Positions 5,342-19,389 of a DNA stretch of 64,000 bases are shown piece by piece. The notes beneath the pieces were generated by a model that was not told where the DNA came from, did no database searches, and worked only from the letters and a program-made list of their open reading frames with translations. Source of the DNA: Betaproteobacteria bacterium (GTDB lineage Bacteria; Pseudomonadota; Gammaproteobacteria; Burkholderiales; Burkholderiaceae_E). Positions within the stretch are counted from its first letter, which is position 1. Every line of letters begins with the position of its first letter. The position numbers and the translations under genes were made by a program. The DNA is taken from positions 1 to 64,000 of the forward strand of contig JAGWVN010000007.1 in NCBI GenBank assembly GCA_018970865.1. Reading direction: 5' to 3'.

Positions 5342-6415
5342 ATGGCCGACCTCCCGGGCCGGCGGCCCGACCCGGTGCCCGCGCCCATGAGCCGCTTCGA
5401 GCGCTACCTCAGCGTCTGGGTGGCGCTGTGCATCGTGGCCGGCATCGCGCTCGGCCGGTGGCTGCCCGGGCCGTTCCAGGCCATCGGCGCCATGGAAGTG
5501 GCGCAGGTCAACCTGCCGGTGGGCCTGCTCATCTGGGTGATGATCATCCCCATGCTGCTGAAGGTCGACTTCGGTGCCCTGCATCAGGTCCGGCAGCACT
5601 GGCGCGGCATCGGGGTCACGCTGTTCGTCAACTGGGCGGTGAAGCCCTTCTCGATGGCCCTGCTCGGCTGGCTCTTCATCCGCCAGGTGTTCGCGCCCTG
5701 GCTGCCCGCCGATCAGCTCGACAGCTATGTCGCGGGCCTCATCCTGCTGGCGGCTGCGCCCTGCACAGCCATGGTCTTCGTGTGGAGCCGGCTCACCGGC
5801 GGCCATCCGCTGTTCACCCTCAGTCAGGTGGCGCTCAACGACACCATCATGGTGTTCGCCTTTGCGCCCATCGTGGCGCTGCTGCTGGGCCTGTCGGCCA
5901 TCACCGTGCCCTGGGACACGCTGCTGGCCTCGGTGGTGCTGTACATCGTCATCCCGGTGCTCATCGCCCAGGTCTGGCGAAGGGCGCTGCTGGCGCGCGG
6001 GCAGGCTGCCCTCGAGGCGGCGCTCGCCCGCATCGGCCCCTGGTCCGTCGGCGCGCTGCTGGCCACGCTGGTGCTGCTCTTCGCCTTCCAGGGCGAGGCC
6101 ATCCTGCGGCAGCCCCTGGTCATCGCCATGCTGGCGGTGCCCATCCTGATTCAGGTCTTCGGCAATGCCGCGCTGGCCTACTGGCTCAACCGCCGGCTGG
6201 GCGAGTCGCACAGCGTGGCCTGCCCCTCGGCGCTGATCGGCGCGAGCAACTTCTTCGAGCTGGCGGTGGCCGCCGCCATCAGCCTGTTCGGCTTCGAATC
6301 GGGGGCCGCGCTGGCCACGGTGGTGGGCGTGCTGATCGAGGTGCCGGTGATGCTGCTGGTGGTGCGCATCGTCAACCGCAGCCGCGGCTGGTACGAGGCG
6401 GGCGCGCGGCGCTGA
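5342..6415 (+). CDS. acr3: ACR3-family arsenite efflux permease
   Basis: The 357-residue membrane protein has about ten transmembrane segments and the ACR3 signature around Cys141 (AAPCTAMVFVW), the conserved cysteine needed for As(OH)3 transport in characterised ACR3 proteins. A charged residue in the late VLIEVPVML helix is also typical. The start is either ATG 5342, 4 bases after the arsC stop, or ATG 5387 (MSRFERYLSVW); the extra 15 residues are Pro/Arg-rich and dispensable, and neither start has a strong ribosome site. It ends the arsenic operon and exports arsenite made by ArsC. Confidence 0.93.
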   Translation: MADLPGRRPDPVPAPMSRFERYLSVWVALCIVAGIALGRWLPGPFQAIGAMEVAQVNLPVGLLIWVMIIPMLLKVDFGALHQVRQHWRGIGVTLFVNWAVKPFSMALLGWLFIRQVFAPWLPADQLDSYVAGLILLAAAPCTAMVFVWSRLTGGHPLFTLSQVALNDTIMVFAFAPIVALLLGLSAITVPWDTLLASVVLYIVIPVLIAQVWRRALLARGQAALEAALARIGPWSVGALLATLVLLFAFQGEAILRQPLVIAMLAVPILIQVFGNAALAYWLNRRLGESHSVACPSALIGASNFFELAVAAAISLFGFESGAALATVVGVLIEVPVMLLVVRIVNRSRGWYEAGARR

Positions 6416-6471
6416 GGCGTCGTCGTCCGCCGGCAGCCTCATCCTGGGCCTGCCGTTGGCTGTTCGCCAAG

Positions 6472-6495
6472 AATCAGATTAGACTTAGTCTGATT
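6472..6495. promoter_or_regulatory. inverted repeat before the Phd/VapC pair (candidate operator)
   Basis: Perfect arms AATCAGA (6472-6478) and TCTGATT (6489-6495) flank a 10-base AT-rich centre. Extending to 12-base arms gives 9 of 12 matches. It lies 22 bases before the antitoxin ATG. Antitoxins of the Phd/YefM family usually bind such palindromes over their own promoter and repress it, more tightly with the toxin. Binding here is inferred. Confidence 0.55.
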
Positions 6496-6516
6496 GATTC
6501 CGGAAAGAGGACGGCA

Positions 6517-6753
6517 ATGGAAAGCGTGAACATCTATGCCGCAAAGACCCAGCTGTCCCAGCTGGTGGACAAGGCCGCCGCGGGGGAGGATGTCATCGTC
6601 AGCCGGCATGGCAAGCCGCTGGTCCGGATCACAGCCCTCGCGTCCGCACGACGCCCGGTGATTTTCGGGCTGCTCAGGGGCAAGCTGAAGATTGCCGACG
6701 ACTTCGATGCACCGCTGCCCGACGAACTGCTGGCGGGCTTCGAGAGGCGCTGA
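6517..6753 (+). CDS. Phd/YefM-family antitoxin
   Basis: The 78-residue protein has the Phd/YefM N-terminal DNA-binding fold (AAKTQLSQLVDKAAAGEDVIVSR) followed by a short C-terminal tail that would wrap the toxin. GGAAAGAGG precedes ATG 6517 at good spacing. The stop codon overlaps the toxin start by one base (TGATG), so the two are translationally coupled. It should neutralise the PIN-domain toxin and autoregulate through the palindrome at 6472-6495. Confidence 0.9.
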   Translation: MESVNIYAAKTQLSQLVDKAAAGEDVIVSRHGKPLVRITALASARRPVIFGLLRGKLKIADDFDAPLPDELLAGFERR

Positions 6754-7130
6754 TGCGGCTGCTGCTGGATACCCACATCTTCCTGTGGGCGCTGTCTGGT
6801 TCATCCCGGCTGAAACCCGCAGCCCGGCGCCTTATCCAGGACGCGGGTGAAGTCCATGTCTCGGCAGCGTCCCTCTGGGAAGTCGCCATCAAGGTGCGCC
6901 TGGGGCGGCTCAAGGCAGATCCTCATCAGATTGCCGCTGCGATCGAGCCCAGCGGCTTCATCGAACTGCCGGTTCGAGCCTCGCACGCCGCCGGTGTCGC
7001 GGCGCTCGAAGCCCACCACAACGATCCCTTCGACCGCCTCCTGCTCGCCCAGGCGCTGGCAGAGCCGCTGCGTCTGCTCACCGCCGATCCGGTGCTGGCG
7101 CGGTACAGCGACATCGTCATCCTGGTCTGA
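6753..7130 (+). CDS. PIN-domain toxin (VapC type)
   Basis: The 125-residue PIN-domain protein has the acidic set expected for a Mg-dependent RNase: Asp6 (LLLDTH), Glu43 (SLWEVAIK), Asp94 (PFDRLLLAQA) and Asp112 (TADPVL). VapC toxins of this subgroup, paired with Phd-type antitoxins, cleave tRNA or rRNA in several bacteria; the target here is unknown. All catalytic residues are present, so it looks active. The position directly after acr3 suggests a stabilising or passenger module of the accessory region. Confidence 0.92.
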   Translation: MRLLLDTHIFLWALSGSSRLKPAARRLIQDAGEVHVSAASLWEVAIKVRLGRLKADPHQIAAAIEPSGFIELPVRASHAAGVAALEAHHNDPFDRLLLAQALAEPLRLLTADPVLARYSDIVILV

Positions 7131-7207
7131 TCGTCGGGCTCGCGTCGGCCAGGGTTGCAGGCGTCCACCCGAGGGCCGGTGACGGTCCTCGTCCAGGGGC
7201 CGCTTCC

Positions 7208-7264
7208 AGTCGACCTCACTAGTCGACGTCGCCAGCCGACGTCACCAGCCGACGTCACCAGCCG
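7208..7264. repeat. 13-base tandem repeat, about 4.4 units
   Basis: Units AGTCGACCTCACT (7208), AGTCGACGTCGCC (7221), AGCCGACGTCACC (7234) and AGCCGACGTCACC (7247) are followed by a partial AGCCG (7260). The third and fourth units are identical. The array starts outside and ends inside the 3' end of the glycosyltransferase gene, whose stop codon lies in the fourth unit. The unit is not a multiple of three, so copy change alters the C-terminus of the protein. Confidence 0.85.
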
Positions 7265-8307
7265 ATCTGCCGCGCCATCGCCGGCGGCGGCGCACGACGC
7301 CCGGCCATCACCCGCAGCACCACGCCGGCCCGCGCCCATTCCCCATGCAGCAGCCGCTCTGCCACCACCAGACCCAGGCTCGCCCAGACCAGCGGCCACA
7401 GCCAGGGCCAGAAACGCCGCGTGACCCGCAGCCGATTGACCGCGCCGAAGTGTTCCGAGAGCGGCGACTTGTTGCGCACGCCCTGCGGCGAGCCGGTGCT
7501 TGCGCCCTCGCGGTGCCGGGCCCGTGAGCGCAGGGCCACGGCAGGCCGAAAGCCCGCGCGACGGGCGCGCTCGGCCCAGTCGATCTCCTCGTAGTAGAGG
7601 AAGTAGCGCTCGTCCATGGGGCCCACCCGTTCGAGCAGCCGCCGACTGGCGTAGAGGCATGCGCCCACCGGGTAGTCCACCGGGGTGAGCACCGGATCGC
7701 TGCCGAGGGGCAGCGCTGTCTGGTGCGTTCCGGTAGCAATCAAGTGGTGATAGCGACCGGCCACGGCCTGCACCCGGCCCGGTTCCTCCCAGTGCATCAG
7801 CACCGAGCCGATCGGGCCGAGGCTATCATCCACCGCCGCTGCCAAGCAGACCTGCGCCAGGGCGTCCGGGGCGAGTGCGAGGTCGTTGTTGAGAATCCAG
7901 AAGCCTTTGTAGCCCGCCCGAAGACCCCATCGCAGCACTGCGTTGGCGCCGCCGGCGTAGCCAAGATTGCGGGTCAGGGTCCAGAGCCAGAGCCGGTCCC
8001 AGGCCGGCGGTGCACCGCCGGCGCCTTCTTGAGTTGGCGCCAAGGCGGTCACCGATCTGACCTCATCGGCAACCGGCGCCAGAGTTGCTTCCGCGGGCGT
8101 CTCGCGCCAACCCCATCGCGCGCCTAGCTGCGAGCGTATCTCGCACACCGAGTCGTCATTCGAAGCGTTATCGCACACCACCAGATCGAATCGCGCTCCT
8201 TGCTGTCCCGCGAGACTCTCCAGGCAGGTGTTGGTATGGCGCGCTCCCTTCCAGTTGATGACGATGACCAGAACCACATGAACCTCGATGCAGGGAAACC
8301 CGCGCAC
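7255..8307 (-). CDS. family 2 glycosyltransferase (rhamnosyltransferase-like)
   Basis: The 350-residue protein begins with the GT2 nucleotide-sugar binding strand (VIVINWKGARHTNTCLESL) and has VVCDNASNDDS, a metal-site-like LNNDLAL near residue 145, and a late YYEEIDWAERARRAGF acceptor motif typical of rhamnosyl-type GT-A enzymes. Transfer of a sugar to an LPS core or O-antigen chain is likely. A GTG at 8277 (eleventh codon) is an alternative start. An approximately 40-residue insertion after the second beta strand (around residues 65-105) is longer than usual. The C-terminus runs into a 13-base repeat. A GT9 gene lies just upstream on the same strand. Confidence 0.85.
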   Translation of the reverse strand: MRGFPCIEVHVVLVIVINWKGARHTNTCLESLAGQQGARFDLVVCDNASNDDSVCEIRSQLGARWGWRETPAEATLAPVADEVRSVTALAPTQEGAGGAPPAWDRLWLWTLTRNLGYAGGANAVLRWGLRAGYKGFWILNNDLALAPDALAQVCLAAAVDDSLGPIGSVLMHWEEPGRVQAVAGRYHHLIATGTHQTALPLGSDPVLTPVDYPVGACLYASRRLLERVGPMDERYFLYYEEIDWAERARRAGFRPAVALRSRARHREGASTGSPQGVRNKSPLSEHFGAVNRLRVTRRFWPWLWPLVWASLGLVVAERLLHGEWARAGVVLRVMAGRRAPPPAMARQIGW

Positions 8308-11733: not shown

Positions 11734-11798
11734 CGGCGTCGCTCTGCCAAGTGCGGCCCATGCAGTCCAGTGCATGGCAGCGACACCGGGGTCTGGAT

Positions 11799-12350
11799 AT
11801 GGCACGACGCAGGGCGGATGCACCGATTGACCTGACCAGTGCGCATACGCTGACCGCAGGCCTGATTGCTGCCGTGCGATGCCCAGACGGCAAGGCCCAG
11901 GGGTTCCTGCGCGATGGTGCCTGCAAGGGTTTGCGTGTGCGAGTGACCGCGGCCGGGGCGAAGTCCTACGTCTTCGAGTCCGAGGTGAACGGCAAGACGC
12001 TGCGGCAGACCATCGGCGGCATTGGCGCCTGGACCATCGAGGCCGCGCGGATGGAGGCGAACCGACTGCGGGTGCTGGTGGACCAGAACGCCGACCCCCG
12101 GGACCTCGCGCGCCAGCGGGCGGAGGCAGCCCGGGTGGCCCAGGCCGAGGCCGAGGCGCGTGCCCAGGCAGAAGCGCGCGCCCAGGCGGCGCTGGCCCTG
12201 ACCGTGGGGGAAGCGTGGTCGCGCTACATCGAGGAGCGCCGTCCGCGCCTGGGCGAGCGCAACGACGAGCAGGCCAGGGTGGTGTTCGAGTTCGACAAGG
12301 CCGCCCAAGCCGAGCCGGTGAAGCCGGTGCTGGCCGTTGTCGGGGAGTAA
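11799..12350 (+). pseudogene. truncated tyrosine integrase (arm-binding domain only)
   Basis: The 183-residue frame begins with the DUF4102-type arm-DNA-binding domain of P4-like integrases (GLRVRVTAAGAKSYVFESEV and RQTIGGIGAWTIEAARMEA), then a charged Ala/Glu-rich linker and the start of the core-binding domain (TVGEAWSRYIEERRP). The similarity ends near residue 155 and a short unrelated tail runs to the stop. The catalytic domain with the R-H-R-Y residues is missing, against about 400 residues in complete family members, so it cannot recombine. Its position near a tRNA-Asn 3' end fits the remnant of an integrated island. Confidence 0.8.
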
Positions 12351-12359
12351 GGCACAAGC

Positions 12360-12377
12360 GGTATCTTTTGGAATACC
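12360..12377. promoter_or_regulatory. inverted repeat before the RelE/HigA-type pair (candidate operator)
   Basis: GGTAT (12360-12364) and ATACC (12373-12377) form a perfect 5-base inverted repeat with an 8-base centre, ending 3 bases before the toxin ATG. Small palindromes at this place are normal autoregulatory sites for HTH antitoxins. The evidence is position and symmetry only. Confidence 0.45.
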
Positions 12378-12380
12378 ATC

Positions 12381-12704
12381 ATGGAACTTCGCATCTACCT
12401 GACCGCCGACGGTCGGGCGCCCTTCGAGGAATGGCTCTCGGCGCTGCGCGACGTTACAGCTCGTGCCCGTATCCGCGCTCGCCTGGCGCGTGTGCAGGCA
12501 GGGAACATGGGCGACTGCAAGCCGCTACGCGACGGGGTTCAGGAGCTGCGAATCGACCATGGGCCGGGATACCGCGTGTACCTGAGCCGGCAGGGGGCGG
12601 TGCTGGTGCTGCTGCTGTGCGGTAGCGACAAGGCGGAGCAGGACCGCGCCATCCGGCAGGCCGTGGATTACCTGAACGACTGGAAGAACCGAGGCAGACC
12701 ATGA
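12381..12704 (+). CDS. RelE/ParE-superfamily toxin (COG3657 type)
   Basis: The 107-residue protein is of the short HigB-like RelE/ParE subgroup called phage-derived Gp49-like or addiction-module killer protein. Typical segments are APFEEWLSALRD, the central GVQELRIDHGPGYRVYLS and the late LLCGSDKAEQDRAI. Such toxins usually cleave mRNA at the ribosome, but catalysis is not shown for most COG3657 members. The gene lies first in its operon, as in higBA, and overlaps the antitoxin by 4 bases (ATGA). Confidence 0.9.
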   Translation: MELRIYLTADGRAPFEEWLSALRDVTARARIRARLARVQAGNMGDCKPLRDGVQELRIDHGPGYRVYLSRQGAVLVLLLCGSDKAEQDRAIRQAVDYLNDWKNRGRP

Positions 12705-13000
12705 CCCATCCGCGCGACAAGAGCTACGAGGAGTCTCTGGTGCGGGCCCTGCAGGACCCTGCGGAGGCTGCTGCGTACATCGACGCCATGCTCGAGATGG
12801 GCGACCAGGCTGCGCTGCTGCTGGCGCTGCGGCAGGTGGCCGCCGCGCATGGCATGGCCGAGGTGGCCCGCCGTGCCGAGCTGGGCGAGAAGACCTTGTT
12901 CAAGTCGCTGGCCGAGGAGGGCAACCCGACGCTCGCCACGCTGACGCGGGTGCTGCATGCGGTGGGCCTGAGGCTGACCGTGACGCCGGAGCGCGTCTGA
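12701..13000 (+). CDS. HigA-like HTH antitoxin (COG3636 type)
   Basis: The 99-residue protein has a long N-terminal helix region (YEESLVRALQDPAEAAAYIDAML) and a Cro/C1-type helix-turn-helix near residues 50-90 (GMAEVARRAELGEKTLFKSL and NPTLATLTRVLHAVG). This is the standard partner of the COG3657 toxin and would bind both the toxin and the palindrome at 12360-12377. Its ATG overlaps the toxin stop, so translation is coupled. Both genes look intact although the neighbouring integrase is not. Confidence 0.9.
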   Translation: MTHPRDKSYEESLVRALQDPAEAAAYIDAMLEMGDQAALLLALRQVAAAHGMAEVARRAELGEKTLFKSLAEEGNPTLATLTRVLHAVGLRLTVTPERV

Positions 13001-13466: not shown

Positions 13467-13542
13467 TGGCTCCCCGACCTGGGCTCGAACCAGGGACCTA
13501 CGGATTAACAGTCCGGCGCTCTACCGACTGAGCTATCGGGGA
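13467..13542 (-). tRNA. tRNA-Asn (GTT)
   Basis: The 76-base gene on the minus strand has acceptor arms TCCCCGA and TCGGGGA, a D-arm with AGCTCAGTCGGTAGAGC, anticodon GTT in the loop CTGTTAA, and a TTCGAGCC T-loop. The discriminator G and an encoded CCA end the gene. Its 3' end faces the integrase fragment and toxin-antitoxin pair, the usual geometry of a tRNA-borne integration site. Confidence 0.97.
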
Positions 13543-13698: not shown

Positions 13699-15780
13699 GT
13701 GCCAGCCTCGCCTCAATCTTCGATCCTTCTGCCCGCCTTGCTGCGGGTGCTCGCGGCGGTCTTCCTGCTGTTTTCCGCGCCCTCCCTGAAGGCACAGCCC
13801 CAGGAGGGCGCCCTGCTCAGCGGTGTGATCGCCCTGGGGTCCGGGCGCAGCGTCCCGCTTCCCGAGGGCCAGTGGAAGCTGGTCGCCGTGCGCCAGCAAC
13901 TCGGTGAGCGGCGCAATCCGCCGAACCTGAACCGCTGGACAGGCTACTTCCTGCGCAACCTCGACGAGGCTGCGCTGATGCCGATGATGGCGGTGTACAC
14001 GGGGCAGGCCACGGGGTCCTTCTGGTCGAACTCGGTCTGCCGGCTCCCGAACAACACGCTGCTGCTCAACCAGTACGGAACCCTGCCAACCGCGCTGGAG
14101 AACCGCTGTTCGGGCCTGCGCGCGGTGAACGCGGCCGCCATGAGCGAGTTCTGGCGCAGCTACTACGAGTACGACCTCGACATCGGCGAACTCTCCGGTC
14201 GTCGCCAGGACGCGCTCAATGTCGCGCTGCTCAAGGTCTTCAAGCTGCGTGACGGCCTCGAGATGGAGATCTTCATCCGTCAGCCCGTGGGCTCGTCGGC
14301 GCGCAAGCTGCGCGAGGAGGTCCGCGCCGATGCCGATGCACCCAGTGCCGTGGCGCTTCATGGCTGGATGGCCAGCTACATTGAGCGCCTGGACAAGTCC
14401 TACCTCGGCAAGCAGCCTCAGGAGTACCCGCTGCTGAGTTTCGATGCGGCTGCCGATCGGTTCACCCGCGTGGCCGAGGCGCCGGCTGCCGATGCCGAGC
14501 GCGCCCGCGAGCAGCTGCGTCGCGAGATCGCGGCCCGCGAGGATGAGCGTCGGGCGCGCGAGCAGGAACGGCAGGCGCTCGAAGCCCGTGCCCGTGAACA
14601 GGAGCGACAGGCTGCGCAGGCCCGTGTGCTTGAGCAGGAGCGGCTGGCCTCGGAAGCCCGCGCCCGAGAGCAGGAGCGGCTGGCCGCAGAAGCCCGCGCG
14701 CGTGAGCAGGAGCGGCTGGCCGCCGAGGCTCGTGTCCGAGAGCAGGCACGCCTTGCGGCCGAGGCGCGTACCCGCGAGGAACAGCGTCAGGCCGCCGAGG
14801 CCCGTGCCCGCGAACAGGAGCGGCTGGCCGCTGAAGCGCGCGCCCGCGAGCAGGAACGCCTGGCCGCCGAGGCACGTATGCGTGAGCAGGAACGCCTGGC
14901 CGCCGAGGCGCGTAATCGTGAGCAGGAGCGCCTCGCCGCCGAGGCCCGCGCCCGCGAGGAGGCGGCCCGCGTGGCCCGTCAGCGCGACGCCGAACTGGCC
15001 CGGCTGCGCGAGCAGCTTGCCCAGCTCGAGGCGCAGAAGGCCAGCGCGCAGGCTGCGACTCCGTCGGCGCCCGCGGCCGCGGCACGCCGCGCGCTGGTCA
15101 TCGGCAATGACAGCTACGCCCAGGTGGCCCGCCTGAACAATGCCCGCGAAGACGCCCGCGCCATGGCCGCCAGTCTGCAGAGCCTGGGCTACCAGGTCAC
15201 CCTGCGGCTCGACCTGCGCGAGCGCGAGATGAAGCAGGCCTTGCGGGTGTTCAAGGCGCAGGTCGAGGGTGGCGACGAAGTGGTGTTCTTCTATGCCGGG
15301 CATGGCGTTCAGCTCGGCGGCAGCAACTACCTGCTGCCGGTGGACATCGCCGGCGAGAGCGAGGATCAGATCCGCGACGAGGCCATCCAGCTGCAGCGCC
15401 TGCTCGACGACATGTCCGAGAAGAAGGCCCGCTTCACCCTCGCCCTGCTCGATGCCTGCCGCGACAACCCCTTCAAGACGGCGGGCCGCAGTCTGGGTGG
15501 CAGAGGCCTTGCGCCCACCAGCGCGGCCACCGGCCAGATGGTCATCTTTTCGGCCGGCGCCGGCCAGCAGGCACTTGACCGCCTCGGGCCCAACGACAAG
15601 GACCCCAACGGCCTGTTCACCCGCGTGTTCCTGCGCGAGATGCACAAGCCCGGGCTGAGTGTCGACCGGGTGGTGCGCAGCGTTCGCACCGAGGTGGTCA
15701 ATCTCGCCCGCTCGGTGGGCCATGAGCAGGTGCCCGCCATCTACGACCAGGTGGTGGGCGAGTTCTTCTTTCGCCACTGA
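13699..15780 (+). CDS. secreted caspase-like peptidase (orthocaspase) with repeat stalk
   Basis: The likely GTG start at 13699 gives 693 residues beginning with a signal peptide (hydrophobic stretch ILLPALLRVLAAVFLLF, then an SLKAQ cleavage area). The reading frame is open further upstream to the tRNA, but those residues are not signal-like. Residues about 35-260 form an unrecognised N-terminal domain. Residues about 285-428 are twelve 12-residue repeats predicted to form a long charged helix. A peptidase C14 domain follows from about 463, with the catalytic dyad His535 (YAGHG) and Cys587 (LLDACRDNP), both intact. Family members cleave after Arg or Lys. The signal peptide suggests periplasmic action; its substrate and trigger are unknown. 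Confidence 0.88.
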   Translation: MPASPQSSILLPALLRVLAAVFLLFSAPSLKAQPQEGALLSGVIALGSGRSVPLPEGQWKLVAVRQQLGERRNPPNLNRWTGYFLRNLDEAALMPMMAVYTGQATGSFWSNSVCRLPNNTLLLNQYGTLPTALENRCSGLRAVNAAAMSEFWRSYYEYDLDIGELSGRRQDALNVALLKVFKLRDGLEMEIFIRQPVGSSARKLREEVRADADAPSAVALHGWMASYIERLDKSYLGKQPQEYPLLSFDAAADRFTRVAEAPAADAERAREQLRREIAAREDERRAREQERQALEARAREQERQAAQARVLEQERLASEARAREQERLAAEARAREQERLAAEARVREQARLAAEARTREEQRQAAEARAREQERLAAEARAREQERLAAEARMREQERLAAEARNREQERLAAEARAREEAARVARQRDAELARLREQLAQLEAQKASAQAATPSAPAAAARRALVIGNDSYAQVARLNNAREDARAMAASLQSLGYQVTLRLDLREREMKQALRVFKAQVEGGDEVVFFYAGHGVQLGGSNYLLPVDIAGESEDQIRDEAIQLQRLLDDMSEKKARFTLALLDACRDNPFKTAGRSLGGRGLAPTSAATGQMVIFSAGAGQQALDRLGPNDKDPNGLFTRVFLREMHKPGLSVDRVVRSVRTEVVNLARSVGHEQVPAIYDQVVGEFFFRH
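14551..14982 (+). repeat. 36-base coding tandem repeat, about 12 units
   Basis: Each unit encodes twelve residues close to RAREQERLAAEA. Several units are identical in protein but vary at third codon positions, so the array has been kept by selection on protein rather than by recent duplication alone. It forms the stalk of the caspase-like protein. Confidence 0.93.
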
Positions 15781-15947: not shown

Positions 15948-17036
15948 ATGGAACTCGCTGTCGTCATTCCTACCTTCAACGAGGCGGGCAATATCGAGCC
16001 GCTCGTGCAGCGCCTTGAGCATTCGCTCGGGGGCGTGCAATGGGAAGCGATCTTCGTCGACGACGACTCCACTGACGGAACTGCGCAGCGCATCCGGGAG
16101 GTTGCCATGCGCCATCCCTCGGTGCGATGCCTTCGGCGCATCGGACGGCGGGGACTGTCCAGTGCCTGCATCGAGGGGATGCTTTCGTCACATGCGCGGT
16201 ATTTCGCAGTGATGGACGCCGACCTGCAGCATGACGAGTCGCTGCTGCCGAAGATGCTTGCTGCGCTACGCGCAGGCGAGTGTGATCTGGCCATTGGCAG
16301 CCGTTATGTCGAGGGTGGTGGCGTCGGCGAATGGGGGAGTTCGCGGCGCATCATCAGCCGCGTGGCAACCTCGTTGGGCAAGCGCCTGCTGAGGGTCCCT
16401 GTAGGTGACCCGATGAGCGGCTTCTTCATGCTGTCCCGGGAAACATTGGAGGCCTCCGTCAGGCGCTTGTCGGGCGTCGGATTCAAGCTTCTGATTGATC
16501 TCATCCTCTCGATGCCGGCGCTCCCGCGAATCAGGGAATTCCCCTATGTGTTCCGGCCGCGACTGAGCGGTGGCAGCAAGCTCGATCTGCGCACCGCGTG
16601 GGACTACCTGATGCTGCTTGCCGACAAGTCGATCGGGCAGTTCGTGCCGGTTCAATTACTTTCGTTTGCCGCGGTCGGCAGCATTGGTGTGCTGGTGCAT
16701 CTTGCTGTACTGGGCTGTGCCCTTGATCTGCTGTCATTGCCGTTTCCGGTCGCCCAATCTGCCGCGGTCGCCACTGCGATGGTGTCCAACTTCACGCTGA
16801 ACAATGCGCTCACCTACCGCGACAAGCGACTTCGTGGCTGGCGCTGGTTCCGAGGGCTGGCTGGCTTCTGCGCCGCCTGTGCCGTCGGAGCGTTGGCCAA
16901 TGTGGGAGTCGCTTCCTACATGCATGGCGAGCAGAACGGCTGGCTGCTGTCGGCGCTGGCGGGAATCCTCGTCGGTCTGGTCTGGAACTATGCCGTCACA
17001 TCGGTGCTGGTGTGGTCTTCGGGGAAACCGCGGTGA
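15948..17036 (+). CDS. dolichol-phosphate-mannose-synthase-like GT2 fused to a GtrA membrane domain
   Basis: The 362-residue protein starts with a GT2 domain (AVVIPTFNEAGNIEPLV, VDDDSTDGT, and the metal site MDADLQHD near residue 90) related to polyprenyl-phosphate sugar synthases. Its last 130 residues hold four hydrophobic segments of the GtrA/DPMS type (GQFVPVQLLSFAAVGSIG, then VSNFTLNNALTYRDKR). The fusion would make a polyprenyl-phosphate sugar at the inner membrane and help flip or anchor it. ATG 15948 is chosen over an upstream in-frame ATG because the GT2 strand begins at once. It overlaps the next gene by 4 bases, so the sugar donor probably feeds that transferase. Confidence 0.88.
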   Translation: MELAVVIPTFNEAGNIEPLVQRLEHSLGGVQWEAIFVDDDSTDGTAQRIREVAMRHPSVRCLRRIGRRGLSSACIEGMLSSHARYFAVMDADLQHDESLLPKMLAALRAGECDLAIGSRYVEGGGVGEWGSSRRIISRVATSLGKRLLRVPVGDPMSGFFMLSRETLEASVRRLSGVGFKLLIDLILSMPALPRIREFPYVFRPRLSGGSKLDLRTAWDYLMLLADKSIGQFVPVQLLSFAAVGSIGVLVHLAVLGCALDLLSLPFPVAQSAAVATAMVSNFTLNNALTYRDKRLRGWRWFRGLAGFCAACAVGALANVGVASYMHGEQNGWLLSALAGILVGLVWNYAVTSVLVWSSGKPR

Positions 17037-18565
17037 TCGCGCCGGTGTTCCGACGCGGCCTGTCGCTCTCTGACTGGCTCCTTCTTGCGGTGCCAGCGCT
17101 GCTGCATCTCGCCCTTGCACTTGCGATTCACCTGTCCCCCGATGAGGCGCACTACGCGCTCTATGCCAGTCGGCTCGACTGGAGCTACTTCGATCACCCG
17201 CCGCTCATTGGATGGGTGCAGTGGCCGTTCCTTCAGGCAGGCGGCGGCGATCTGCCAATGCGGATCGCACCGATGGCCGCCTGGCTGATCACGGCGCTGA
17301 TCCTTGCCCGCCTGACCGATGCCCTGTTCCCCGACCTGCCGAGAGTGTGGGGCCTGCGCCCCGATCTGCTGCTCTACTGCCTCAGCCTGATGCCCAATCT
17401 GCTCGGAGTGGCCTGGGTACCAGATACCCTGCTCACGGGGCTGTCGTGTGCAGTGATGCTGGTGACCTGGCGGCTCTGTCGACATTCCGGCGAGGCCGAG
17501 AGCCTCGGCCTGTGGGTCCTGCTCGGCGTGCTTCTCGGGTTGGCGGGCCTCAGCAAGTACACCGCCGTGATCTGCGCCGCGGGTGCTGGCGCGGCGTTGT
17601 CCTTGGCGCGCGGGCCGGCGTTGCTGCGCCAGAGAGGATTCTGGATCGCTCTCGCGATCGCCATCCTGTTCGTGCTTCCGGTGTTCGCCTGGAATGCGGC
17701 CCATGACTGGACCTCCTTCCGTTACCAGTTGAGCCGAGCTCACGGCGGTGAGCACTGGCAACTCGTCCGCAGCCTGCAGTTCGCTGCGGTCATCTGGCTG
17801 GCCCATGGTCTGCTGCTGCCGGCCTGCTGGGCGCTGGCCTGGCGGCACACCAGGATCCCCGCATATGGCTCCAACCTGACGCCATTGACATTCACCCTGC
17901 TGTTCGCAGCGCCCGGGCTCGCGGGGCTTGCGCTGCTGGCGGGGCGCGGCGGAACCCTGCCGCACTGGGTGCAGCCTTTTGTGGTGTGCGCCATGCCCCT
18001 GGCCGCGGCAGGCCTGACGCGCTTGTGGGGGGGGCGGCCGCGTGTCGCAGGGCTTGGCCTCATCGCGCAGGCGCTGCTGTGTCTGCTGGCCTTCGCAGTC
18101 ACGGCTGCGGGTGGATGGTCGGCTGCAGCATCAGGCGCCGCTGCGCCGGGGGACGGCGCCCAGGTAAGCAGACAGTCACCCAATCCAATTGCCGATCTGC
18201 ATGGCTGGGATTCGGCTGCGCGTCGCGCTGCCGACATTGCCCGCAACGCGGGCATCGGTACCCTGGCAGTGGTCAACTGGTCCATGGCCAGCCGCATCGC
18301 CTGGTACGCGCGCCCAATGCCAGTCAAGGTGGTGAATGCCCGCACCGATCAGTTCGACCTCTGGTTCGGAACGCTGTCGGGCGCCGAGGATGCTCTGCTG
18401 GTGCAGCACTCCGGAATGGGCCATCCGCTGCCAGTGGGCGGGTATGGCTTCCGGTCCTGCGAAGTCGTCGACACGATGCCTGTCGAGCGCGCCGGCCGTC
18501 GCATCGCGACCTTCAGTTTCCATGCCTGCCGGTACTGGATGGGCGCCGCGGGCCAGGCACAATGA
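17033..18565 (+). CDS. GT39-type polyprenyl-phosphate-sugar glycosyltransferase (ArnT/PMT-like membrane protein)
   Basis: The 510-residue membrane protein has about ten hydrophobic segments and the first-loop signature of the GT39/ArnT group: acidic DEAHYALYASRLDWSYFDHPP near residue 40, followed by W and P residues. Such enzymes take a sugar from undecaprenyl phosphate and add it to lipid A, protein or another acceptor on the periplasmic side. GTG 17033 overlaps the upstream stop (GTGA) and gives a short N-terminus; GTG 17012 is possible. The upstream GT2-GtrA protein is the likely donor maker. The acceptor is unknown. Confidence 0.85.
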   Translation: MIAPVFRRGLSLSDWLLLAVPALLHLALALAIHLSPDEAHYALYASRLDWSYFDHPPLIGWVQWPFLQAGGGDLPMRIAPMAAWLITALILARLTDALFPDLPRVWGLRPDLLLYCLSLMPNLLGVAWVPDTLLTGLSCAVMLVTWRLCRHSGEAESLGLWVLLGVLLGLAGLSKYTAVICAAGAGAALSLARGPALLRQRGFWIALAIAILFVLPVFAWNAAHDWTSFRYQLSRAHGGEHWQLVRSLQFAAVIWLAHGLLLPACWALAWRHTRIPAYGSNLTPLTFTLLFAAPGLAGLALLAGRGGTLPHWVQPFVVCAMPLAAAGLTRLWGGRPRVAGLGLIAQALLCLLAFAVTAAGGWSAAASGAAAPGDGAQVSRQSPNPIADLHGWDSAARRAADIARNAGIGTLAVVNWSMASRIAWYARPMPVKVVNARTDQFDLWFGTLSGAEDALLVQHSGMGHPLPVGGYGFRSCEVVDTMPVERAGRRIATFSFHACRYWMGAAGQAQ

Positions 18566-19389
18566 ATCGCTACCCTGATCTCTTTCCCCCGCCGGGCGCC
18601 GCCTTTCCCTGGCGCATGGCGGCGCTGCTGCTCGCGGGCTTTTCCGTCTTGGCGCTGGCGCAGTGGATGGGGTTGCCGCAGACGGAATCCTATGCGGCGC
18701 TGAAGAAGTTGCTGCTCTCGGTCCTGCCCGCCGACCTGTGGTCGGAACTGACCCATGCTGGTGATCTGCGGGTTCTGCTTTGCCTGCTCAGCCCTCTTCT
18801 TCTGATCCGGCCCATGTTGGTCTATGCGCTGCTCGCAGCGGCGCCGGCCGGCGGACTGGCGTCGGTGATTCTCAAGCGACTCTTTCAGGCTGCCCGCCCG
18901 GAAGAGATATCGGCCGGCATCGCGTATGCGATCGAGACAGCCACAACCCAGCGTTACGACAGCTTTCCCTCGGGGCATGCCCTGACGGTTTTCGCGGTGC
19001 TGGGCATTTTTCTTGGCAGCGTCGTCGGCGGTCATGTGCGCCGCATATGGCTCATCGCACTGGTCTTGGCAGGGTCTGTCATCGCACTGGCGGCGATGTC
19101 GCGGGTGGCGCTGGGTGTGCATTGGCCGCGTGATATCGCCGCGGGGGCGATCCTGGGCTGTCTTCTTGGCAGGGTCGGCATTTCGATCGTTCGAGCCTTT
19201 GCTGTGCAACTGCAATCGCACCGCCTCAACCTTGCCGTGCATGCGCTCATCGTGGTCCTGGGATTTCTGATGCTCAGGGAAGCCTATTCGGACCCGGGCT
19301 CGGCCCGGCTGCCGCAGCTTGCCGTCCTGATGGCGGCGGGCAGCCTGTCGTATCGACTCATCTGGTGGAGGGGCGCGCCTCGGCAATGA
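18562..19389 (+). CDS. PAP2-family membrane phosphatase
   Basis: The 275-residue protein has about six hydrophobic segments and the three PAP2 motifs: KRLFQAARP, PSGHA and SRVALGVHWPRD. The catalytic histidines and arginines are all present. Members remove phosphate from lipid A, undecaprenyl diphosphate or phosphatidylglycerophosphate in the inner membrane. ATG 18562 overlaps the GT39 stop by 4 bases. In this cluster it may recycle the polyprenyl carrier or free a phosphate site for sugar addition; this is inference. Confidence 0.88.
   Translation: MNRYPDLFPPPGAAFPWRMAALLLAGFSVLALAQWMGLPQTESYAALKKLLLSVLPADLWSELTHAGDLRVLLCLLSPLLLIRPMLVYALLAAAPAGGLASVILKRLFQAARPEEISAGIAYAIETATTQRYDSFPSGHALTVFAVLGIFLGSVVGGHVRRIWLIALVLAGSVIALAAMSRVALGVHWPRDIAAGAILGCLLGRVGISIVRAFAVQLQSHRLNLAVHALIVVLGFLMLREAYSDPGSARLPQLAVLMAAGSLSYRLIWWRGAPRQ

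Follow-up and report, generated by a model that had tools for sequence, protein, structure and literature searches.

A predicted exported caspase with a new N-terminal domain recurs with a second secreted caspase and with OmpA-like and Ig-like partner genes in Burkholderiales

The role of bacterial caspases has long been an open question, and most of the literature that we found on it is cyanobacterial. A gene from a betaproteobacterium (contig JAGWVN010000007.1, positions 1 to 64,000, the 64,000-nucleotide stretch analysed here and called the window) raises that question in a specific form: what would a caspase-like peptidase do behind a signal peptide, an unrecognised N-terminal domain and a helix of 12-residue repeats? 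A preliminary description of the sequence had proposed a periplasmic sensor that links envelope state to proteolysis. Here we show that the gene belongs to a caspase family carrying a new domain and a conserved export signal, and that its most interesting lead is the set of partner genes with which it recurs. The gene and its upstream neighbour are as follows.

13699..15780, + strand: secreted caspase-like coding sequence, 693 aa plus stop, with a GTG start whose exact position is putative
13467..13542, − strand: tRNA-Asn, directly upstream, context outside the caspase gene

We compared the window gene with its nearest orthologue, G006:C83 (public contig CAIZPE010000083.1), by dN/dS, and found purifying selection only downstream of the GTG at 13699. 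The DNA 5′ of the GTG has an omega of 0.73, which is non-coding-like; the value falls to 0.16 in the N-terminal domain (purifying selection), to 0.05 where the coil can be aligned and to 0.04 over the caspase domain (strong purifying selection). This profile indicates an open reading frame under protein-level selection that starts at or just 3′ of the GTG. Because selection begins there, the signal-like segment is not an artefact of the start call; it lies inside the gene, and the true start is not downstream of it, the point on which the preliminary description had let its export claim turn. An earlier start at ATG 13543 was rejected, as it abuts the antisense tRNA-Asn and the DNA before 13699 evolves in a non-coding-like way.

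The enzymatic part of the protein lies at its C terminus.

15085..15753, + strand: Peptidase_C14 caspase domain, residues 463–685 (Pfam E = 2.1e-32)
15301..15303, + strand: catalytic His535 (AGHG), by alignment to MALT1 and homologues
15457..15459, + strand: catalytic Cys587 (LLDACRD), by alignment to MALT1 and homologues
15151..15153, + strand: Asp485, putative S1-pocket residue, aligned by phmmer to the MALT1 Asp 50 residues before the catalytic His
15451..15453, + strand: Asp585, putative second S1 residue, aligned to the MALT1 Asp two residues before the Cys

PF00656, the one Pfam match over residues 463–685, scores 113.1 bits against a curated cut-off of 21.4, which places the protein in Peptidase_C14. 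Both catalytic residues are present, as first reported: His535 and Cys587 are invariant across 10 aligned N-domain homologues and form the His–Cys dyad of active orthocaspases, and the window protein is probably an active caspase-like protease. Among solved structures MALT1 is its best match, both in sequence (E = 7e-13) and in predicted fold (E = 5e-12). Asp485 and Asp585, equally invariant in the 10-homologue caspase alignment, align with MALT1 aspartates that we take to line the S1 pocket; with such acidic S1 residues Arg or Lys would be expected at P1, and basic P1 specificity is therefore plausible. Unlike the prodomain of type I metacaspases (a zinc finger and a Pro-rich repeat), that of the window protein is an LPxGxW domain followed by an Arg/Glu helix, and the Pfam search gave no zinc-finger match.

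13699..13794, + strand: predicted signal peptide, residues 1–32, ending in SLKA with QPQEG following the predicted cleavage site; position and hydrophobic core are kept in homologues at 22–27% identity

At the equivalent place, these divergent homologues have a hydrophobic N terminus ending in [A/S]-Q-[P/A], and the n-, h- and c-region pattern of a Sec signal peptide is retained across them. The conservation of this segment supports the predicted export of the window caspase, whose signal peptide contains no lipobox cysteine. Export had also been called unusual for caspases, and this does not hold. When 120 genomes of the same order were scanned with a simple and crude signal-peptide rule, 37 of 66 C14 frames satisfied it, as did 18 of the 22 in the DACR-type subclass to which the window caspase belongs. 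N-terminal helices, likely signal peptides or transmembrane segments, were described on prokaryotic metacaspases by Asplund-Samuelsson et al. in 2012 (PMC3501461), and such helices on orthocaspases and metacaspases are also documented in PMC6426788. Caspase export is ordinary in these bacteria.

The segment behind the signal peptide is what sets this family apart.

13795..14484, + strand: N-terminal domain, residues 33–262, with an LPxGxW motif, modelled as mostly beta with C-terminal helices (12-sequence alignment and model)
14038..14109, + strand: Cys114 (14038–14040) and Cys137 (14107–14109), a candidate disulfide, invariant in 12 of 12 aligned N-domains

Common to the 12 aligned N-domains are the LPxGxW motif, the two cysteines and several tryptophans. 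The domain (about 230 aa) matched no Pfam or NCBIfam family. Structure prediction, which had been suggested as a check, gave a beta-rich model of moderate confidence (pLDDT 72, pTM 0.77) with no significant fold neighbour in the PDB, the best being BT_1490 (E = 0.036, TM 0.34), followed more weakly by DcrB and PsbP-like folds; against a library of viral models the best E value, 0.05, was also non-significant. We therefore rejected assignment to a known family, and the description of the domain as unrecognised stands: it is a new domain on an exported caspase family. That it acts as a sensor is a guess, because the model is only of moderate confidence and has no known fold neighbour. Separately, a secreted caspase of another genome (G021, L064:7133-9361) carries, beyond its caspase domain, a C-terminal region that starts ITLPPGNWRL and has two cysteines and an LPxGxW-like motif, a resemblance only.

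Of 399 genomes of the order, 8 carry the N-domain; a search of 369 genomes of the class yielded no further one. Plasmid matches were discarded, as they were confined to the caspase domain, with identities of about 40%. Wherever it occurs, the domain is joined to this caspase subclass or sits at a contig end in a manner consistent with fusion. The window genome (G000) encodes two N-domain caspases; besides the window gene there is a paralogue whose halves lie at the ends of contigs C143 and C189. An apparently stand-alone N-domain on C143 was thus dismissed, since the gene runs off the contig there and the end of C189 very probably holds its caspase half; the N-domain caspase of G329 is likewise split by the assembly (C135/C45).

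A long helical region connects the N-domain to the caspase.

14485..15048, + strand: predicted long helical region, residues 263–450 (AlphaFold helices 263–349 and 359–450)
14551..14982, + strand: tandem 36-bp, 12-residue repeats with consensus RAREQERLAAEA, 11 clear units and one degenerate, residues 285–428
14983..15039, + strand: short coiled-coil-like segment RDAELARLREQLAQLEAQK preceding the caspase; by alignment, most N-domain homologues have an equivalent

Tandem Repeats Finder (TRF) reported a period of 36 bp and 11.3 copies at 14557–14962, and the self-identity at period 12 is 0.64, a value that 2000 shuffles approached no closer than 0.33. With a clear unit defined as at least 8 of 12 positions matching the consensus, 11 of the twelve units originally counted are clear, whereas the twelfth is degenerate. 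The long helix itself agrees with the AlphaFold model, in which the break at residues 348–358 falls in low-confidence residues. What is not supported is the 12 × 12 stalk as the essential feature. The G006:C83 orthologue, whose caspase is 98% identical to that of the window, has five clear units and a degenerate one, about half the window copy number (which depends on a fragmented assembly of 192 contigs), and the other, more distant N-domain homologues have a Pro/Ala-rich spacer in place of the repeat. The repeat helix is therefore a recent, variable, lineage-specific expansion preceding a more widely kept coil. Despite the differing spacers, most homologues keep this short coil just N-terminal of the caspase, in variants such as ELAKLREEV and LQAQLDQMRKALAQLQA; the Hydrogenophaga homologue (L037) has no counterpart in the caspase alignment.

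The composition of the repeat bears on two other explanations. Its 144 residues include 36 Arg, beside a protease predicted to be Arg/Lys-specific, as might be expected of an exported housekeeping or processing enzyme in which the N-domain serves as a pro-domain for folding or targeting, self-cleavage occurs in the Arg-rich spacer and the freed caspase processes secreted or surface proteins. Autocatalysis has been reported for the orthocaspase MaOC1 (cited in PMC8283722). Against this, the Pro/Ala spacers of other homologues are not Arg-rich, and the purifying selection and invariant residues of the N-domain are atypical for a pro-peptide; we regard such a processing role as rather unlikely. 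Very unlikely, in our judgement, is a rigid stalk or ruler that spans the periplasm and reads out envelope spacing or stress as proteolysis. A helix predicted over residues 263–450, a repeat with many E-R/R-E pairs spaced i+3/i+4 and a single-helix-like composition, and a unit sequence kept under the low omega of the aligned coil part would all suit a ruler, but a ruler should hold its length, and both the near-halving in the closest orthologue and the Pro/Ala-rich spacers elsewhere speak against it, as does the dependence of the copy number on a fragmented assembly.

15951..19389, + strand: GT2-GtrA glycosyltransferase, PMT_2 glycosyltransferase and PAP2 phosphatase genes, in tandem downstream, context

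The GT2-GtrA and PMT_2 genes also lie downstream of the G006 orthologue. On the other side, the stretch at 11751–13000 adjoining the tRNA-Asn holds an integrase fragment (Arm-DNA-bind_3, 199 aa) and then a toxin–antitoxin-like pair (Gp49-like, a sub-threshold match, and a dnstrm_HI1420 antidote), which looks like what is left of an element that had inserted at the tRNA. A role as cell-death or anti-phage effector, harmless until triggered, is highly improbable: the protein matches the PADLOC 'caspase' model (3.7e-16), some defence systems use caspase homologues and the tRNA is preceded by this pair and the integrase fragment, but the match spans the generic protease domain only, the neighbours (tRNA-Asn, GT2/GtrA, PMT_2, PAP2) include no PADLOC companion genes, the tRNA-Asn/GT2/PMT_2 locus, which the orthologue in G006 shares, is no defence island, no N-domain homologues were found in viral contigs, and export would be poor placement for abortive infection.

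The reading that we prefer, a periplasmic orthocaspase working with a peptidoglycan-associated partner set, draws on genes that recur with the N-domain. All 8 N-domain genomes encode a secreted Ig-like protein, compared with 7 of the 391 genomes that lack the domain (Fisher 4e-13), a value that overstates independence because the genomes are phylogenetically related (three genera); the fairer figure is the per-genus one, 3 of 3 N-domain genera against 6 of 156 others (P about 1e-4). A close second secreted caspase (C14 plus DUF4384; E below 1e-110) is also present in all eight, that of G003 being split by contig ends. Within the window genus, the N-domain, the Ig-like protein and the close DUF4384 caspase occur together in G000, G003 and G006, and all three are absent from the other seven genomes. 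In G003, G047, G094, G212, G271 and G264 the N-domain caspase gene has Ig-like, DUF4384 caspase and OmpA-like genes around it, joined in the last five by a gene for a Zn-ribbon membrane protein, which is present in G329 too. Gene order in these clusters varies, and frequent overlaps of about a base give them an operon-like character.

L058:6691-11522: recurring partner module, G047
L078:6027-11499: recurring partner module, G094
L081:3880-9774: recurring partner module, G264
L057:713-3634: recurring partner module, G003
L066:5793-8268: recurring partner module, G000:C32
L162:4576-7769: recurring partner module, G006:C50

The core of the module is the secreted C14–DUF4384 caspase, the OmpA-like protein and the small Ig-like protein, often with the Zn-ribbon protein and the N-domain caspase. 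In the window genome it lies on another contig, C32 (DUF4384 caspase 5793–7466, Ig-like gene 7508–7963, OmpA-like start cut by the contig end), of which G006:C50 is the complete version, and neither the window gene nor its paralogue adjoins it. Because the caspase gene is unlinked to the module there, the partnership in that genome is one of co-occurrence only. We infer a functional link between the N-domain caspase and these partners. Our literature search found no description of this partner set and its second secreted caspase, nor of clusters of caspase and OmpA genes.

We put at about an even chance the proposal that the window protein is a periplasmic orthocaspase with Arg/Lys specificity and a sensing or docking N-domain, and that it works with these peptidoglycan-associated partners. 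A MALT1-like, basic-P1 orthocaspase would be exported by Sec to the periplasm, or further. Its N-domain would fold compactly, stabilised by a Cys114–Cys137 disulfide, and the LPxGxW domain would dock to or sense an envelope component. The caspase would sit at the end of a spacer that finishes in the short coil. Since dimerisation activates the related MALT1 and animal caspases, the coil could serve to bring two caspase domains together; its lack in the Hydrogenophaga homologue counts against the proposal. The active enzyme would then cleave envelope proteins after Arg or Lys, acting with the DUF4384 caspase and the Ig-like protein and usually also with the OmpA-like peptidoglycan-binding protein. 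The co-occurring OmpA-like and Ig-like partners lend indirect support to the envelope sensor linked to proteolysis that was originally suggested. A more elaborate version, which we think quite unlikely, is a periplasmic two-caspase relay comparable to initiator and effector caspases, in which the LPxGxW protein would be the sensor and the C14–DUF4384 protein the executor, held at the peptidoglycan by the OmpA-like protein and regulated by the Ig-like one.

Two over-readings of the locus, of its export and of what is a local repeat expansion, are thus corrected. With its new domain and repeatable partner genes, this exported family offers a concrete, testable system of four or five genes, and it predicts a single envelope pathway in which both caspases act.

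Several known systems resemble parts of this one. Secreted caspases with Sel1 repeats (L059, L041, L040) or MORN repeats (L060, L061; both repeat names assigned by eye from sequence) occur in the same order, belong to the same subclass as the window caspase and mostly share its layout of signal peptide first and caspase last, but another accessory domain replaces the LPxGxW domain; the MORN form L061 adjoins the same DUF4384 caspase, OmpA-like and Ig-like genes. Very long proteins with a C-terminal caspase domain of DSCF/DSCY type and N-terminal parts that look haemagglutinin-like and repetitive by eye were also seen, at L065:7157-9484 (G000:C45, cut by the locus end), L111:2550-8414 (G051) and L109:313-6768 (G050). 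The MALT1 paracaspase is the best sequence and fold match, with S1 aspartates that align, but the window protein is bacterial and predicted to be exported, and has neither death nor Ig domains nor the MALT1 architecture. Cyanobacterial C14–DUF4384 orthocaspases (PMC8283722) share the architecture of the partner caspase, not of the window protein; unlike them, the partner is predicted to be exported and is operonic with OmpA-like and Ig-like genes. Prokaryotic orthocaspases and metacaspases (PF00656, MEROPS C14) have the same domain, His–Cys dyad and acidic S1 pocket, and as a class they show a large diversity of attached domains as well as N-terminal signal or transmembrane helices (PMC3501461, PMC6426788). 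In contrast to those described, the window protein carries its caspase domain C-terminally, behind an undescribed N-domain and a spacer of Arg/Glu repeat helix.
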